A DNA stretch of 58,431 bases from a virus. This document shows positions 39,202 through 45,380 of the stretch, piece after piece. How positions within the stretch are numbered: the first letter of the stretch is position 1; each line of letters begins with the position of its first letter. Below the pieces are notes generated by a model. It did no database searches. It worked only from the letters and a program-made list of their open reading frames with translations, and was not told where the DNA came from. The position numbers were made by a program, and so were the translations under genes. The DNA lies in the IMG/VR virus record IMGVR_UViG_3300021425_000043, positions 1-58,431 of that record; one strand, given 5' to 3'.

Positions 39202-39396
39202 ATGGCGTATAAAAGAAAAACAACTAGAAAAGCACCAACAAAAAAGAAGTCTTTGACTAAAAGACAAGAAGCTAGTATGAAGCGGCATTCTAAACACCAT
39301 AGTGCAAGTCATATGAAATATATGAAAAGGCGTATGCTTATGGGTGATACATTTAGAACTGCTCATAAAAAAGCACAAGCAAAAGTAGGTAAGTAA
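39202..39396 (+). CDS. small basic protein, 64 aa
   Basis: It begins MAYKRKTTRKAPTKKKSL and carries SMKRHSKHHSASHMKYMKRR and LMGDTFRTAHKKAQAKVGK. It is very rich in Lys, Arg and His. The HHSxxHMKxMxxxMxxGxxFxxAHxxAxxxVG pattern recurs in small marine phage proteins. It resembles the basic cluster beside terS and may bind DNA. Its stop overlaps the next start. Confidence 0.65.
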   Translation: MAYKRKTTRKAPTKKKSLTKRQEASMKRHSKHHSASHMKYMKRRMLMGDTFRTAHKKAQAKVGK

Positions 39397-39818
39397 TGTA
39401 CGAATACAGTTGCGGTATAACTAGGATCGTGGACGGAGATACTGTCGACGCTGAGATAGACTTAGGCTTTGACATTGTATATAAGTCTCGTGTCAGACTA
39501 TACGGAATCGACACGCCAGAATCACGAACACGTGATTTAGATGAAAAAGCTAGAGGTAAACTAGCAGCAAAGTTTTTATCCGATGCTATCTTGCATGCAG
39601 ATACATTAGTCATACAAACAAAACTAGATAAGAAAGGGAAGTTCGGTAGAGTTCTAGGCGTTATCGTTGCAGATGGCGTAGATCTAAACCAAGCGCTTAT
39701 AGACAATCATCTTGCTGTTGCCTACACAGGCCAGAGTAAAGATGATATAGAGGCACAACATTTAGCAAACAAGGAGGAGCTGTTAAAGCTTGGAAAATAT
39801 GAAGAAATTATTAACTAA
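39396..39818 (+). CDS. thermonuclease-like protein (SNase family)
   Basis: The 140-residue protein matches the staphylococcal-nuclease fold. RIVDGDTV supplies calcium ligand D15, and VRLYGIDTPE supplies R34, D39, T40 and E42, equivalent to SNase R35, D40, T41 and E43. KKGKFGRVLG supplies the second catalytic Arg (~85), and DLNQALIDNHLAV closes the fold. It should cleave DNA or RNA with Ca2+. No signal peptide is present, so it acts in the cytoplasm, for example in host nucleic-acid turnover. The end overlaps the holin-like gene. Confidence 0.9.
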   Translation: MYEYSCGITRIVDGDTVDAEIDLGFDIVYKSRVRLYGIDTPESRTRDLDEKARGKLAAKFLSDAILHADTLVIQTKLDKKGKFGRVLGVIVADGVDLNQALIDNHLAVAYTGQSKDDIEAQHLANKEELLKLGKYEEIIN

Positions 39819-40269
39819 CATAGTAGGGAGCGTAGCTCCAACATTAGGTGCGGCACTCGGTGGCCCTTTAGGTGGCATGGCAGGTGACGTTATATCCAAA
39901 GTATTAGGTGTAGAAAACAATCCAGCATCATTAGAAAAAGCAATTGCACAAGCAACACCAGAACAATTGATGGAAATTAAAAAAGCAGAGATAGAGTTCG
40001 AAGCTAAGATGAAAGAGCTGGATGTAGACATATACAAAATAGAAGCTGAAGAGAAGAAAGACGCACGTAAACACTTTTCTAAAGACTGGACTGCTAGGAT
40101 TATAGGTATAGCCATGGTTGGTGGTTTTCTTGGTTATATCTTTCTTGTAACGCTACAACCACCAGAGCAAAATAGTGAGGCTCTGATTAATTTAGTGCTA
40201 GGTTACTTGGGTGGCCTAGCGTCTGCAGTAATATCATTTTATTTCGGAGCCTCCAATAAACAAGAATGA
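39790..40269 (+). CDS. holin-like membrane protein, 159 aa
   Basis: I use TTG 39790 because GGAGG lies 12 nt upstream; the ATG at 39799 (MKKLLTNIVG) is the alternative. Residues ~8-40 are a Gly/Ala-rich amphipathic segment (VAPTLGAALGGPLGGMAGDV). Next comes a charged helix (AEIEFEAKMKELDVDIYKIE), then two membrane segments (IIGIAMVGGFLGYIFLVTL; LVLGYLGGLASAVISFYFGA). This matches the three-segment holin-type proteins common in marine phages. It would permeabilise the inner membrane for the GH24 lysozyme. Confidence 0.75.
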   Translation: MENMKKLLTNIVGSVAPTLGAALGGPLGGMAGDVISKVLGVENNPASLEKAIAQATPEQLMEIKKAEIEFEAKMKELDVDIYKIEAEEKKDARKHFSKDWTARIIGIAMVGGFLGYIFLVTLQPPEQNSEALINLVLGYLGGLASAVISFYFGASNKQE

Positions 40270-40616
40270 CCGAAGCGATTACGGTAATCCAAGAAGTTGG
40301 TTTTCCTATAGCAGCTGCAGCTGGTTTAGGTTGGTTTATTTATAAACTAATCATGCGTATTGTGGACGGTATGGAGACAAAACTTGATACCGTAGATGAA
40401 AAAGTAGAATCTCAAATAGCAGCCATAGAAGAACGACTAGGCACAAAACTTGACTCACAGCATGGTATTTTAGTAGCCTTAATAGACAGGGTGCGTAGTT
40501 TAGATAACGAAATTATAAGACAAGACACTTTGATAAAGACTATTCTTGGCGTACCTCAACTAATAGATAGCAATAAAATTGCTAAGGCGGATAGAGATGA
40601 CCAAAGAAAAGATTAA
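40266..40616 (+). CDS. BhlA-like holin / membrane protein, 116 aa
   Basis: The ATGA overlap couples it to the previous gene. One N-terminal membrane segment (residues ~12-33, GFPIAAAAGLGWFIYKLIM) is followed by a long coiled coil (METKLDTVDEKVESQIAAIE ... LVALIDRVRSLDNEI). This topology fits BhlA/UviB-type bacteriocin-release holins. It could instead be a lysis regulator for the first holin. Its last 20 nt overlap csgF. Confidence 0.65.
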   Translation: MTEAITVIQEVGFPIAAAAGLGWFIYKLIMRIVDGMETKLDTVDEKVESQIAAIEERLGTKLDSQHGILVALIDRVRSLDNEIIRQDTLIKTILGVPQLIDSNKIAKADRDDQRKD

Positions 40617-41139
40617 AAGAAAAAGAGGCAGACCCTCTAACGCAGAACTAAAGCGTAGAAAAGAAGAAAGGGAAAAGGATCTTATCCTAAGGGTATTGCT
40701 TGCGATAGGGGTTTTTCTAATTGGTGCTATAGTTTCACAAAACTTATTAGCAGACCAAATGACCCATAAGTTTAAGTCTCCTTCTTTTAGTGGAGAAAAT
40801 ACTTCTAGTCACTACCTAACAATAGATAATGTTGAATACACTAGAAAAATGTCTATAAAAGCAGAATTAAAAGCTTTGCAAGACCAAATAAAAAGAGACA
40901 AAGAGAACACAACCCTTGCTAGATTTGTCCGTAATTTAGAGTCTAGGATTTATGCACAGTTGTCTAGACAACTTGTAGAAGCTTTGTTTGGAGAGACTCC
41001 AAGCGATAATGGTACAATTGAGTTAGAAGGTAATACAATTACCTATAGTGTAGTAGACGGTATAATAACTCTAACTGTGGTGGACTCGGACGGCAATGAA
41101 ACAATTATTCAAATTCCTATCGGTAGTTTTACTTTCTAG
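40597..41139 (+). CDS. csgF: CsgF-like curli assembly protein
   Basis: I start at ATG 40597 (MTKEKIKRKRGRPSN); an earlier in-frame start lies inside the previous gene. Residues 1-29 are strongly basic and include an AT-hook-like RGRP. Residues 30-51 are a hydrophobic membrane/signal segment (LILRVLLAIGVFLIGAIV). From residue 54 the chain aligns with mature CsgF: MTHKFKSPSFSGENTSSHYL, as in the E. coli segment that plugs CsgG. A helix (ARFVRNLESRIYAQLSRQLV) and the beta domain GTIELEGNTITYSVVDG, then LTVVDSDGNETIIQIP, follow. CsgF couples the pore to extracellular nucleation. The long basic leader is unusual. Confidence 0.85.
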   Translation: MTKEKIKRKRGRPSNAELKRRKEEREKDLILRVLLAIGVFLIGAIVSQNLLADQMTHKFKSPSFSGENTSSHYLTIDNVEYTRKMSIKAELKALQDQIKRDKENTTLARFVRNLESRIYAQLSRQLVEALFGETPSDNGTIELEGNTITYSVVDGIITLTVVDSDGNETIIQIPIGSFTF

Positions 41140-41956
41140 TTGTGCGTCCTTAATATTTGACCCGATAGAAAATAACATAGGCCCAATCCAAAAAATAGAA
41201 AGGGCAGAGGTAGAAACACTCGCAGTATCTAATCTTTCTTCTGTTGGAGTGCCAACACGTAAACCAGTCATTGCAGTTTATCCTACAAGTTTTACAGACC
41301 AAACAGGACAAAGGTTAAGCAATTCAAGCTACGCTTCTTTCTCTACTGCAATAACTCAACTACCAAGTGCCTATTTAATAAGAGCTTTGCATAAAGCAGG
41401 CTCGGATCACGGGGGGTTTTTTACTGTAGTTGAAAGGGTAGGTTTAGATAACTTAACTAAAGAACGCCAAATTATAAGAAGCACTAGAGAAAAAGAAGAT
41501 AATGCCAAGGAGCTAGGGGCCCTTTTGTTCGCAGGTTTAATTATAGAAGGGGGTGTGATAGGATATGAGAGTAACGTTACGTCTGGCGGTGCTGGAGCAC
41601 GCTATTTAGGCTTAGGTGCAACCAAAGCGTATAGAAGAGATTCAGTAACAGTACAACTTAGGTTGGTATCTGTTACAACGGGAAAAGTTTTGCTAGAGAC
41701 ACTGGTGACTAAAACAATACTAAGTGCCTCATTAAGTAACGATGTTTTTCGATTTATTTCTGATAATACAGAGTTAGTCGAAATAGAAAGTGGTGTTGTA
41801 AGAAACGAATCCGGAGGATTGGCTTTAAGGGCCGCCATAGAAACAGCAGTTCTGCAGATAATTAAGGAGGGTACAGAAGCAGGCTATTGGAGTATACATG
41901 AAAAATATAAAACTATTGATTGCGATGCTGATTGTGTCGCCTCTGTACGCGGCTGA
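41096..41956 (+). CDS. csgG: CsgG-like outer-membrane curli secretion channel lipoprotein
   Basis: 286 residues. The lipobox LLSSC makes C16 the mature lipidated residue. The body aligns throughout with E. coli CsgG: FTDQTGQ, ASFSTAITQLPSAYLIRAL, VVERVGLDNLTKERQIIRST, and the highly conserved EGGVIGYESNVTSGGAGARY, then LRLVSVTTGKVL, TKTILSASL and VFRFI. CsgG forms a nonameric 36-strand pore. The constriction Phe (F56) is kept in SFSTA, while the N55 position is Ser and the Y51 alignment shifts. The start lies 44 nt inside csgF, so translation is coupled. Bacterial csgE, csgB and csgD are absent. Confidence 0.95.
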   Translation: MKQLFKFLSVVLLSSCASLIFDPIENNIGPIQKIERAEVETLAVSNLSSVGVPTRKPVIAVYPTSFTDQTGQRLSNSSYASFSTAITQLPSAYLIRALHKAGSDHGGFFTVVERVGLDNLTKERQIIRSTREKEDNAKELGALLFAGLIIEGGVIGYESNVTSGGAGARYLGLGATKAYRRDSVTVQLRLVSVTTGKVLLETLVTKTILSASLSNDVFRFISDNTELVEIESGVVRNESGGLALRAAIETAVLQIIKEGTEAGYWSIHEKYKTIDCDADCVASVRG

Positions 41957-42608
41957 TAACGAAATATATGTAGATCAAGCCGGTGCTACTTTAAACCTAG
42001 ACTTAGAACAACTTGGTTCTGGTAATATTATAGGCGGGCTTAATGCTGCTGCTGGTAGTATGACTGCTCTTGACCTTGATGGCGCTACTATGACTTTAGA
42101 CATAAACCAAATAGGTGGTTCTAATACATTTTTAGGGGATATTTTAGCTGACAATTTTACAGGTTTTTTTGAGTTTGATGGAGACAGTAATGACTTTACA
42201 ATCCAAGTAGACCCTACTAATACCTATGGAGCTGACGGTAGTAATCTTAATGTAGACGTTACAGGAGACAGCAACGACTTTACGTTAAACGTAGGGACAA
42301 CAGCTTTAACTGGTAATTTAGACTTAGATTGGATTATAAATGGTTCTAGTAATACATTTGATTTTGATATTAACTACGATGGTGCTACATCTTATGTAGA
42401 CGTAGATGGTGATTCTAACAATGTTACATTTGATGGTTCAGGCTATGCAGGCGGATATTTTTACCTTGACCAAACAGGTAATAGTAGAACATTTAATATT
42501 CAACAACTGAGTACCCAAGATAATGACTGGCTTAAAATTATATCTAACGGTAATGGTGGTACTGTTTGCGTCATTCAAAACGACCAAGGCACAGGCACAA
42601 GCTGTTAA
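41898..42608 (+). CDS. secreted curlin-like repeat protein
   Basis: The 236-residue protein has a signal peptide (MKNIKLLIAMLIVSPLYA, cleavage before ADNE). It then has seven degenerate curlin-like strand-turn units: QAGATLNLDLEQLGSGN, INQIGGSNTF, DGDSNDFTIQV, TGDSNDFTLNV, NGSSNTFDFDI, DGDSNNVTFD and DQTGNSRTFNIQQ. The G-x-S-N turn and alternating hydrophobic strands mirror CsgA/CsgB QxGxxN repeats, though acidic Asp often replaces Gln. Two Cys sit near the C-terminus (C224, C236). It begins 59 nt inside csgG, so it is the likely cargo of the phage CsgG pore. It may form an amyloid-like fibre or coat. Confidence 0.75.
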   Translation: MKNIKLLIAMLIVSPLYAADNEIYVDQAGATLNLDLEQLGSGNIIGGLNAAAGSMTALDLDGATMTLDINQIGGSNTFLGDILADNFTGFFEFDGDSNDFTIQVDPTNTYGADGSNLNVDVTGDSNDFTLNVGTTALTGNLDLDWIINGSSNTFDFDINYDGATSYVDVDGDSNNVTFDGSGYAGGYFYLDQTGNSRTFNIQQLSTQDNDWLKIISNGNGGTVCVIQNDQGTGTSC

Positions 42609-43632
42609 TATTGGAGATATTTCTGAACTAAAAGGGACTGCTAGCGTCTTAAGAGACCAACCTTACGGCGCTGAATTAGATTTTGACATTCAACAAATGG
42701 ATGACGTTCGTACAACTAACGGACGTGTAGGCATAACATTCCTGGACAATTCTATTGTACGACTGACGGAACATTCTAAACTTGTCATAACTGAATACAT
42801 TTACGACCCTGACCCTTCAAAAGGTAAAATGGCCATGACGTTTGCTAGCGGTACGGCTAGGTTTATAAGCAGTAAACTAGGCAAGATTGATAAAAAAAAC
42901 ATAAAACTTTCTACACCTACAGCTGACATTGCAATTCGTGGGACTGATTTTACGTGTACCGTAGACGAACTTGGACGTTCGCTTATTATTTTACTACCTG
43001 ATGCTAACGGTTTATCTAGTGGCGAAATACTTGTTACAACCGCTGCAGGCACAGTTACTTTAAACAGACCTTATGAAGCTACGACTGTTAATGTATTTGA
43101 AAACGCACCTAGTAAACCTGTTATATTAGATTTAACTTTAGACATAATAGACAACATGTTGATTGTTAGTCCTCCGGACGAATCAAAGTTATCCACAGAA
43201 TCATCCACAACGTCCGGAAATACTGGGGCAATTTTAGATATAGACTATTTAGAGTTTGAGGATTTAGAGTTTGATTATCTAGCAGAAGACTCGCTTGAAT
43301 TTAGTGAGCTTGATATAAATTATTTAGATGTTAATTTTTTTGAAGATTTATTAGAAGTTATAGAAGAATTAGATACTTTGGGAGACCAGGCATTGACTAC
43401 AGGTTCAGTGCTGCAGGGCACAACCTTTGGGCAAGATTTAGTTACGCAAATTACAACTTTTAAACAAGATGAAAGCATTATTTTAGAAAGAGCAGTAACG
43501 CAAGCTACTAAGTTGACCCTAAACATATCGCAGGGCTATACTATAATATTACTGCAGGATGGTAAAACACAACAAGTGTTAATAAATGGTGGAGGTGACT
43601 CTACTATAAGGATTACACAGGGGTCAGGATGA
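42523..43632 (+). CDS. secreted FecR-domain protein
   Basis: 369 residues with a signal peptide (MTGLKLYLTVMVVLFASFKTTKAQA). A FecR domain spans ~30-180 with its markers: RTTNGRVGITFLDNSIVRL, TEHSKLVITEY, GTARFISSK and STPTADIAIRGTDF. The second half is acidic (DIDYLEFEDLEFDYLAEDSL) and ends with a small beta motif (LNISQGYTIILLQDG). FecR domains sense or transmit signals in the periplasm. In bacteria, single FecR-domain proteins are often encoded next to CHASE2 adenylate cyclases, exactly as here. It starts 86 nt inside the curlin-like gene; M11 (42553) is an alternative start. Confidence 0.85.
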   Translation: MTGLKLYLTVMVVLFASFKTTKAQAQAVNIGDISELKGTASVLRDQPYGAELDFDIQQMDDVRTTNGRVGITFLDNSIVRLTEHSKLVITEYIYDPDPSKGKMAMTFASGTARFISSKLGKIDKKNIKLSTPTADIAIRGTDFTCTVDELGRSLIILLPDANGLSSGEILVTTAAGTVTLNRPYEATTVNVFENAPSKPVILDLTLDIIDNMLIVSPPDESKLSTESSTTSGNTGAILDIDYLEFEDLEFDYLAEDSLEFSELDINYLDVNFFEDLLEVIEELDTLGDQALTTGSVLQGTTFGQDLVTQITTFKQDESIILERAVTQATKLTLNISQGYTIILLQDGKTQQVLINGGGDSTIRITQGSG

Positions 43633-45380
43633 AGAAATGGATTTCGTTATTAGCAATACCAATACTAGCTATACCACTGCTGTTTAACTGGCAGGCACTA
43701 GAGATACTTAAATTAAAAACATTTGATGCTTTCGTACAAAAACAAGATCCATCTGGCTGGTTTGTAACTTTAGATATAACAGAAGAAGATGTAGCAACTG
43801 CAGGTGGGTGGCCGTACCCGCGTCAGGACTTGGCACGCATTCATTTAGATTTATTAGAAGCAGGAGCTTTAGGTGTAGGTTGGGTTGTTGCTTTTCCACA
43901 AGCAGATAGGTTTGGTGGCGACCAAGCATTTGGAGATGCTTTGTTACAAGGTGCGAGTGTTATTGCTACTTTTGAAGGTGGGGCTTCGTATGCACCTACC
44001 ACAGGCACAGTCATACTAGGAGATGGTATACCTATAGAAGCTATAAAAGCTCAAGGTGTTATTGGAAATGTACCCGTGCTAGCAGAGTCAGCTTACCAGG
44101 GGCTGGCAGTTGCACGAACTGACGTAGATAATTTAGTTAGACGTTTACCCTTACTATTACAAACACCTGATGGTTGGACGCCGTCTTTTGGTATACAAGT
44201 AATGAAGATGATTGGTGGCGCAGATACGTACATTATTAAAGGGCAGCAAGGGCAGATAGAAGAACTGACTGTACCTAACTACGCACAAATACCTGTAGAT
44301 AGCATTGGGCGTCGTTGGGTGTCTTGGGTTGATACGCCAAGCACAAGCCTAGAAGAGATGGATGTACGAGATAAATTTGTGTTTATAGGCGTGAGTGCAA
44401 AAGGTGTTATGCCTCAAATAGCTACGCCAGTTGGATTGTTGTACCCACATGAGATACAAGCTGCACTAGCTGAGAGTATGACAATGGATGTACCAGCTAT
44501 ACCAGGCAATGCTCTATTATATGAATTACTTATATTAGTTACAGTACTAACCTTAGCCATAGTTATAATACGTACATTAGGGCTCGTCGGAACTTTAGTA
44601 GGGACCGTGGGCCTCGTATCGTTAACCGCGGTCGGAGGTTGGTACTTAATTGCATCGAATATACTTATAGATGTTACTTATAGTATATTATCAGCCATAC
44701 TTATATCTATTCAAGAATTTTATTTACGCTTTAACGAACAATTTAAACTTAGACAATTAATAAAGAAACAGTTTGAACACTACTTAGATCCGAAACAAGT
44801 TGCACGATTACAAAACAACCCTGGCTTATTACAATTAGGTGGAGAAAAACGTATATGTACATTCTTGTTCACAGACGTCAGAGGGTTCACGAATCTGTCC
44901 GAAAAATTATCTCCTGAAGAAGTAACAGAAATAATGAATAAAGTTCTTACTGTACAAGTTACATGTATTCAAGCACATGGTGGTATGGTAGATAAGTTTA
45001 TAGGCGACGCATGTATGGCCATCTTTAATGCCCCCCTATCTATAGATGAACATGAAAAACGTGCAGTCGCCTGTGCTCAGGATATGCGTACGGCTATTCG
45101 CATGCTGCAAAAAGAATTGTCCGAACCAATTGCAATAGGCATAGGTGTTAATACAGGCGAAGCAGTAATAGGTAACATGGGCTCAGATACTAGGTTTGAT
45201 TATTCAGCAATAGGAGATGCGGTAAATACGGCTGCACGATTAGAGAGTGCAACTAAAGAAGCTGGAGTAGATATTTTAATTGGAGAAACTACTGCTAAGA
45301 AGATGTTGTATGATCTGACACTATTAGCTCCTATAAAAGTAAAAGGTAAAGCAAAACCTTTAAAGGTGTATACTATATAA
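43629..45380 (+). CDS. CHASE2-domain class III adenylate/guanylate cyclase
   Basis: 583 residues. One N-terminal membrane helix (4-20) is followed by a CHASE2 extracytoplasmic sensor (~25-290: WFVTLDITEEDVATAGGWPY, RHLPLLL-like RRLPLLLQT). Three membrane helices (~298-362) and a catalytic domain (~405-583) follow. Catalytic residues are complete: metal-binding D416 (TDVRGFT) and D460 (FIGDA), purine-specifying K456 (VDKF) with S526 at the Thr/Asp position (DYSAIGD), and transition-state N533 and R537 (VNTAARLE). It should convert ATP to cAMP at the inner membrane; Ser instead of Thr leaves slight doubt on base specificity. ATGA overlap with the FecR gene implies a sensor pair. Such a cyclase is highly unusual for a phage. 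Confidence 0.92.
   Translation: MKKWISLLAIPILAIPLLFNWQALEILKLKTFDAFVQKQDPSGWFVTLDITEEDVATAGGWPYPRQDLARIHLDLLEAGALGVGWVVAFPQADRFGGDQAFGDALLQGASVIATFEGGASYAPTTGTVILGDGIPIEAIKAQGVIGNVPVLAESAYQGLAVARTDVDNLVRRLPLLLQTPDGWTPSFGIQVMKMIGGADTYIIKGQQGQIEELTVPNYAQIPVDSIGRRWVSWVDTPSTSLEEMDVRDKFVFIGVSAKGVMPQIATPVGLLYPHEIQAALAESMTMDVPAIPGNALLYELLILVTVLTLAIVIIRTLGLVGTLVGTVGLVSLTAVGGWYLIASNILIDVTYSILSAILISIQEFYLRFNEQFKLRQLIKKQFEHYLDPKQVARLQNNPGLLQLGGEKRICTFLFTDVRGFTNLSEKLSPEEVTEIMNKVLTVQVTCIQAHGGMVDKFIGDACMAIFNAPLSIDEHEKRAVACAQDMRTAIRMLQKELSEPIAIGIGVNTGEAVIGNMGSDTRFDYSAIGDAVNTAARLESATKEAGVDILIGETTAKKMLYDLTLLAPIKVKGKAKPLKVYTI

Follow-up and report, generated by a model that had tools for sequence, protein, structure and literature searches.

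What a virus would export through a curli channel of its own, and what could hold the exported protein at the surface of the infected cell, are the questions raised by the locus described here. The window, that is, the whole stretch of DNA analysed, is the 58,431-base virus record IMGVR_UViG_3300021425_000043, which derives from a marine virus of bacteria and carries terminase, P22-type portal, capsid and PolA genes. In it, a CsgG channel and CsgF, both recognized by Pfam as parts of a type VIII secretion system, adjoin the gene of the candidate cargo (Table 1). A virus-borne curli cassette is in itself already known, as cassettes with the same genes in the same order have been published for the pelagiphages HTVC008M, the HTVC023P type and Melnitz (PMC7029224, PMC9599517, PMC9004378), and it is some details of how the parts may be assembled that look new. 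At its upstream end the cargo ORF shares 59 nt with csgG, and at its downstream end it shares 86 nt with the FecR ORF. CsgG presents a lipobox-type cysteine, Cys16, that is invariant in 20 of 20 aligned sequences, and its profile matches solved CsgG at 1.1e-67; the catalytic region of the CHASE2 cyclase aligns with solved cyclases. Two minor features of this region are a basic AT-hook-like stretch that precedes the hydrophobic N-terminal segment of CsgF (AT_hook only at E 0.074) and, upstream of the cassette, a Staphylococcal-nuclease-like protein encoded at 39396-39818.

Table 1. Positions of the cassette genes and of the protein features discussed in the text, numbered along the window
Feature	Position	Strand	Remark
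Small protein gene upstream of csgF	40266..40616	+	N-terminal hydrophobic segment, then coiled-coil-like part, by eye
CsgF (PF10614)	40579..41139	+	Pfam 3e-16
CsgG outer-membrane channel (PF03783)	41096..41956	+	Pfam 8.5e-49
Curlin-like cargo, predicted acidic eight-rung beta-solenoid	41898..42608	+	236 aa
C224 codon, first Cys of C-terminal pair	42567..42569	+	Cys in 102/104 related cargos
C236 codon, last cargo residue	42603..42605	+	Cys in 102/104 related cargos
FecR-domain protein (PF04773), signal-peptide-like start, proposed retention/anchor protein	42523..43632	+	
FecR protein residues 27-121, modelled fold like 5ix9 'Cell surface anchoring domain'	42601..42885	+	
FecR protein C-terminal curlin-strand-like tail, mixed evidence	43516..43629	+	
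CHASE2-class III adenylate/guanylate cyclase	43629..45380	+	Pfam

The original prediction had taken the cargo for a curlin-like substrate of CsgG, to be checked by structure prediction. According to this, the AlphaFold2 model, built on 57 aligned sequences, is an all-beta solenoid (mean pLDDT 85.6, pTM 0.78), and when it was compared with predicted viral proteins the matches at ranks 1, 3 and 4 were all named 'Curlin associated' (E 2e-6 to 2e-3, prob 1.00, TM 0.67-0.71). Against solved structures Foldseek gave no match at E<=0.001 (best E 0.25), and re-alignment of its candidates brought up solenoid proteins, SufB/SufD first, with Z up to 17.5; no curlin entry stood among the best 50 of the 165 re-aligned chains, an absence that excludes nothing. 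The best match of the cargo profile among solved sequences was the curlin 8c50, only at E 0.075. The window cargo itself had no Curlin_rpt match at E<=1 in the Pfam protein search, in which nothing reached significance, and the six-frame search of the record returned two sub-threshold Curlin_rpt matches, both within the cargo ORF, the better one scoring 7.9 bits against a cut-off of 20.7. Among its relatives, Curlin_rpt was found at E<=1 in 29 of the 57 aligned cargo members (best 1e-5), and it was also found in 14 of 16 aligned second curlins (best 4.7e-8), a further protein that myophage relatives carry, unlike the window with its single cargo. Relatives of the cargo occur in six public phage records, all of them HTVC008M or Melnitz entries annotated as curlin, and relatives are encoded in at least 600 stretches of virus collections, where such cassettes are common; the best PHROG match had an E of 0.012, and a near-identity DNA search with 25 kb of the window gave no match in phage records. 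The solenoid model, the 'Curlin associated' matches, the presence of Curlin_rpt in relatives and the gene order thus support a curlin-like cargo of CsgG, while neither contrary outcome, a fold other than a beta-solenoid or homology to unrelated lipoproteins, occurred: the model is a beta-solenoid, and residues 1-22 contain no cysteine and therefore no lipobox.

The cargo resembles E. coli CsgA and CsgB in its predicted beta-solenoid, its x-G-x-x-N turns and its position beside CsgG and CsgF. Eight turns were counted instead of the seven strand-turn units first described, at G40, 73, 95, 123, 149, 171, 194 and 218 (spacings of 33, 22, 28, 26, 22, 23 and 24), and the expected G-x-S/G-N turn is kept in the form of six strict G-x-x-N motifs but not in the last two turns, which read G-x-x-R and G-x-x-G. 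Taken by itself, the window sequence shows this motif only modestly above chance: G..N was seen 7 times against a shuffle mean of 3.4 (reached by 66 of 2000 shuffles), and G..N.[hydrophobic].[hydrophobic] 4 times against 0.59 (6 of 2000). In 104 distinct related cargos, by comparison, both residues of each strict turn, the G as well as the N, are conserved in 99-100%.

The register of the strands was inferred from the sequence by placing the scheme of Sleutel et al. (PMC10192328) on the turn glycines. With this register 41 of the 64 inward positions are hydrophobic, and a shift by one residue lowers the count to 11 or 16. When Gln/Asn were scored at the canonical ladder positions 7, 18 and 12 of each repeat, the window cargo presented Gln at 5 of 16 and Asn at 6 of 8, which falls short of a canonical CsgA-type ladder; the 16 Gln positions further hold 8 hydrophobic residues, 3 others and no Asp, and in the cargo family Asp reaches 14% at one of these positions and 0 at the others. 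Of the 56 outward strand positions 15 are aspartate, but of the 64 inward ones 1 is (Fisher P 5e-5). The family is Asp-rich, in line with the Asp-rich strands first noted in the cargo (a mean of 12.8% D and 4.1% Q in 102 distinct podo-type cargos versus 7.3% D and 9.1% Q in 108 bacterial curlin ORFs), but the structural reason then given, Asp taking the place of Gln in the ladder, is wrong in the canonical register, which places the Asp residues outwards instead.

Because of these inward/outward and ladder counts, and as far as sequence and model can tell, the cargo is a curlin-like protein of the degenerate class with an acidic outside rather than a curlin with an Asp ladder. Its strand-arc-strand repeats, about 23 residues long and incomplete in their motifs, are stacked in the solenoid model, and the degenerate-class CsgA homologues described in PMC10192328 present the same repeat length, incomplete motifs and arc insertions, with a similar AlphaFold mean pLDDT of 83. 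Published curlin models are left-handed, and the likeness stated here is one of sequence and fold class. The window cargo differs from those homologues in a C-terminal cysteine pair and an N-terminal stretch of the NEIYVDQ kind, and it differs from E. coli CsgA/CsgB in the few ladder glutamines, the acidic outer face and, again, the cysteine pair. As the cargo misses the Pfam curlin cut-off and keeps so few of its ladder glutamines, its polymerisation is uncertain.

The two C-terminal cysteines had been noticed before and were confirmed as C224 and C236. When loci were fetched by CsgG, all 39 of 39 distinct cargos had cysteines at the same distance from the end. A terminal pair is present in 16 of 16 aligned second curlins and in curlin 1 of both Caulobacteraceae operons considered below (L242 and L243), and the first cargos of myophages have a cysteine pair elsewhere in the chain (53/53, by pattern). 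By contrast, two cysteines within the last 40 residues were found in none of the 108 ordinary bacterial curlin ORFs, which were taken from CsgG-fetched loci by a strict repeat motif and run from stop to stop, seven loci (L242-L246, L250, L303) being excluded from the bacterial counts. The N-terminal stretch, searched by pattern, is present in 103 of 104 phage cargos against 9 of the 108 bacterial ORFs, a count in which some starts may be missed as those ORFs run from stop to stop. We infer that the cysteine pair probably closes the last rung of the solenoid as a disulfide cap. The cargo and FecR genes overlap by 86 nt in 124 of 139 podo-type pairs, and the cysteine pair was also considered as a by-product of this overlap; this was judged unlikely, since a terminal pair also occurs in the 16 aligned second curlins and in curlin 1 of L242 and L243, none of which overruns a FecR start. 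Cysteines are not mentioned in PMC9599517 and PMC3521004, and of two mentions in PMC10192328 at least one stands in a passage on engineered mutants.

The cassette is kept as a unit. Among 111 loci with enough flank, which were fetched by cargo or CsgG similarity and are not an unbiased sample, csgF, csgG, cargo, FecR and cyclase are complete and in order in 104, the other 7 having no detected cyclase, and the cargo is accompanied by FecR in all 111. For the cargo itself 148 of 161 loci were kept, of which 104 are distinct, the others having no stop or no usable start. In the 42 of 78 CsgG-fetched loci in which all four genes were complete, the median identity to the window was 71.1% for the cargo, 66.2% for CsgG, 62.0% for FecR and 55.6% for the cyclase, and the cargo exceeded CsgG in 29 of the 42, which makes it no less conserved than the pore. 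These paired identities are preferred over the pN/pS values (CsgG 0.51, cargo 0.22, FecR 0.36, cyclase 0.46) because the latter are near saturation and come from gene sets fetched by different queries. In 205 of 207 loci the small protein gene has a relative less than 900 bp upstream of csgF (this count and that of the cassette order include contigs fetched twice, such as L003 and L086); the histidine kinase mentioned in PMC9599517 may be this protein.

The absence of a CsgE gate and of a CsgB nucleator, also claimed before, held as well: PF10627 had no match in the window record, and Curlin_rpt matches lie only inside the cargo ORF, so no separate curlin was found there and the cargo is the only evident CsgG cargo of the record as far as Pfam and gene order show. 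E. coli curli have both proteins, but their lack is no peculiarity of this phage, because in the Alphaproteobacteria csgE is missing and a distinction between CsgA and CsgB is possible only in the Gammaproteobacteria (PMC3521004), and CsgE has already been reported missing from pelagiphage curli (PMC9599517). The aligned second curlins of the myophages comprise 14 of 17 distinct fetched sequences plus two from named phages. In that of HTVC008M (L001:9768-11093) the curlin repeats are preceded by an apparent PA14 domain, which could serve as an adhesive head; PA14 matches 1 of the 16 (best E 2.7e-6), assigned from sequence to the HTVC008M protein. The first cargo of HTVC008M is 32% identical to the window's.

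The most interesting question raised by the cassette is whether the FecR protein is an anchor and nucleator. This protein begins with one hydrophobic helix of signal-peptide type followed by the FecR domain, and PF04773 was its only Pfam match at E<=1, with no anti-sigma domain. It thus departs from a FecR/PupR anti-sigma regulator, in which a cytoplasmic anti-sigma domain and an inner-membrane helix come ahead of the periplasmic domain. In its AlphaFold model residues 31-190 have block means of 75-88, while an acidic linker and the last 28 residues are poorly modelled (pLDDT under 50 for residues 342-369). Residues 57-191 of the model match the fold of a periplasmic signalling domain, that of the anti-sigma regulator PupR (Z 14.1, Foldseek E 5e-4). 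Residues 27-121 resemble 5ix9, which we take to be part of a Marinomonas primoryensis adhesin, with a Z of 7.1 that is in the range of common arrangements and a Foldseek match of E 0.019 (prob 1.00, TMt 0.71, rmsd 1.1, 30% identity over 61 columns); phmmer found no match to the 5ix9 sequence. Judged on the models, the PupR match is the better of the two and keeps a signalling role open. The fold of residues 27-121 would correspond to the N-terminal retention modules of large adhesins, whose retention domains are described in general for the LapA type in PMC13090378, with the differences that in the window the presumed displayed part is a separate protein and that the channel is CsgG and not of the TolC type. 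A LapG-like TAAG string was taken as chance, because it lies inside the FecR beta domain and is not kept across the family.

The genomic context of FecR domains was explored with the family profile in 385 sampled alphaproteobacterial genomes. At E<=1e-25 it matched 28 of them, the query genome included, and the 42 places outside the query genome cover the FecR-domain part only, 27 of them in open frames of at least 800 residues. Ten such partial FecR-domain proteins were chosen by hand from 30 loci, with preference for large frames, and RTX, cadherin or Calx-beta domains were found in six. This occurrence in long, adhesin-type frames favours a structural role over iron regulation, without proving it.

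The C-terminal tail of the FecR protein ends in [IV]x[IVL]xQ plus at most 4 residues in 158 of 162 distinct proteins, and this ending was found in none of 403 other cassette proteins (0/176 CsgG, 0/113 CsgF, 0/114 cyclases). A few short out-of-frame 'fecRMel' matches were ignored in the survey of FecR proteins. In profile comparisons with two curlin sets, podo-type tails scored 22.8 and 22.2, where the highest values among 60 shuffles each were 18.1 and 16.5, and myo-type tails 14.8, reached by 1 of 60 shuffles, and 18.1, reached by none; the E values run from 0.0015 to 0.3, no probability exceeds 17%, and in the best alignment of the podo type it is the first half of the tail that is covered and not its last strand. 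With an independent bacterial curlin profile the tail outscored the rest of the protein in 108/108 podo-type and 51/54 myo-type sequences at low scores (medians 2.9 and 2.7 bits), 21 of the 108 and 44 of the 54 exceeding the shuffled 95th percentile. The best match along the full-length protein fell near the C-terminus in 5/108 and 41/54, in the window protein it fell at residues 295-311, and in the FecR proteins of L242 and L243 outside the tail. The evidence is mixed, and the tail is treated here as curlin-like by pattern, not as a demonstrated homologue.

Considering these results together, we propose that infection could produce a curli-like fibre or adhesin tethered to the surface of the cell, exported by the phage's own CsgG and CsgF and anchored by the FecR protein, a reading that we favour tentatively and place a little short of an even chance. 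The acidic curlin-like solenoid would be secreted through the phage CsgG/CsgF channel during infection, and the FecR protein would be a periplasmic retention or anchor protein more likely than an iron regulator. Its N-domain, similar to an adhesin anchoring domain and followed by the acidic linker, could retain the protein while the strand-like tail docks on the cargo at its open edge and so takes over the part of CsgB; the CHASE2 cyclase may report on the envelope through a cyclic nucleotide. In this picture the genes and their order, the conservation and the predicted fold of the cargo come from the computations, and export through CsgG, polymerisation, the disulfide, anchoring, signalling and any benefit are conjectured from them. 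A tethered fibre or adhesin could change cell-cell contact or shield the infected cell. Curli genes are reported to be missing from known SAR11 and from the OM43 host of Melnitz (PMC9599517, PMC9004378), and infection would therefore add a surface structure to such cells. Counting against this reading, Buchholz et al. reported no clumping of infected cells (PMC9004378). A FecR protein acting as an adhesin-type retention protein with a tail that replaces CsgB was not found in the literature searched, where no listed paper connects FecR with the nucleation of curli or, in phages, with the retention of adhesins, and may be new. The fate of infected cells, be it aggregation, shielding or lysis, is tied to which protein nucleates or retains the fibre and to the role of FecR, regulator or anchor.

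A more specific form of this proposal, which we regard as doubtful, is a split adhesin in which the FecR protein would be the retention and nucleation half at CsgG, the disulfide-capped solenoid the displayed half, and the two would be coupled to CHASE2. If true, it would be a way to make surface curli without CsgB and CsgE that three or more phage lineages have come to share as a single unit and that is present also in rare alphaproteobacterial operons.

The best surviving alternative is the one proposed in PMC7029224 and PMC9599517, in which the cargo alone would form free amyloid fibres that aggregate hosts, allowing sibling capture, or hinder superinfection, with FecR as a regulator. The curlin-like fold of the cargo and the PupR-like residues 57-191 agree with it, but the ladder is degenerate, the 108 ordinary bacterial curlin ORFs lack the terminal cysteine pair, and the FecR protein has no Pfam anti-sigma domain while its domain occurs in adhesin-type proteins, so we consider this explanation unlikely though deserving attention. 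It is improbable, in our opinion, that cargo left unassembled in the periplasm is sensed by FecR together with the adjoining CHASE2 cyclase and signalled by cyclic nucleotide, with the tail as reporter or chaperone instead of anchor: the PupR match and a cyclase whose catalytic region aligns with solved ones would suit such a device, but the anchoring-domain match and the adhesin context fit retention as well. Finally, we give little credence to the pore as a lysis-timing device (a gated secretin or pinholin, with the cargo as plug or passenger), as proposed in PMC9004378 and in line with the small one-hydrophobic-segment protein that precedes csgF, because the cargo is conserved as much as CsgG or more, is accompanied by FecR in all 111 loci, fetched by cargo or CsgG, and belongs to operons that have counterparts in three bacterial MAGs.

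Concerning the spread of the cassette, the TerL, portal and PolA of the window have best matches of 34-51% identity in phage records, in Aeromonas phage phiA008 (TerL) and in KPP25-type phages. When compared with 50.0 of the 57.6 kb of HTVC027P, TerL was 35% identical and PolA 24% over 429 columns, and portal, capsid, helicase and primase had no match in those 50.0 kb; on these sequence comparisons the core genes are not of the HTVC023P type. In 14 chosen relatives on long contigs, records that may be fragments, the window's portal was present in one (L101) and an HTVC023P-type PolA, at 48-49%, in four (L030, L049, L050, L055); three others had weak PolA matches and six neither portal nor PolA. 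As the window type, the HTVC023P type and the myophages all carry the cassette, it occurs in at least three phage lineages. Two phage families have been reported to carry it (PMC9599517), and a lineage outside these two was not found in the literature searched.

FecR and the cyclase are stated to be absent from bacterial T8SS operons in PMC9599517. We have found csgF-csgG-curlin-FecR-CHASE2 cyclase operons, in the same gene order as in the window, on three alphaproteobacterial MAG contigs with bacterial-type flanking genes, two of Caulobacteraceae (L242 and L243) and one of the MAG Hyphomonas sp. TMED17 (L245), which were likewise not found in the literature searched. L242 and L243 have a FecR protein ending in a similar strand, by eye, and differ from the window in having two curlins; the FecR protein of L245 has no tail, and none of the three has a relative of the small upstream gene among plus-strand ORFs of at least 50 residues. 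Such operons appear to be rare: of 299 genomes sampled in the order of L242, a FecR protein of the L242 type was matched at E<=1e-25 in 1, the query's own. In the L243 operon the CHASE2 cyclase gene is followed at a short distance by one for a protein with a PycTM (Pycsar effector) domain (L243:13979-14587). Phage-like curli cassettes were also seen on four further contigs binned into bacterial MAGs (L244, L246, L250 and L303), and these are probably phage DNA in the bins.
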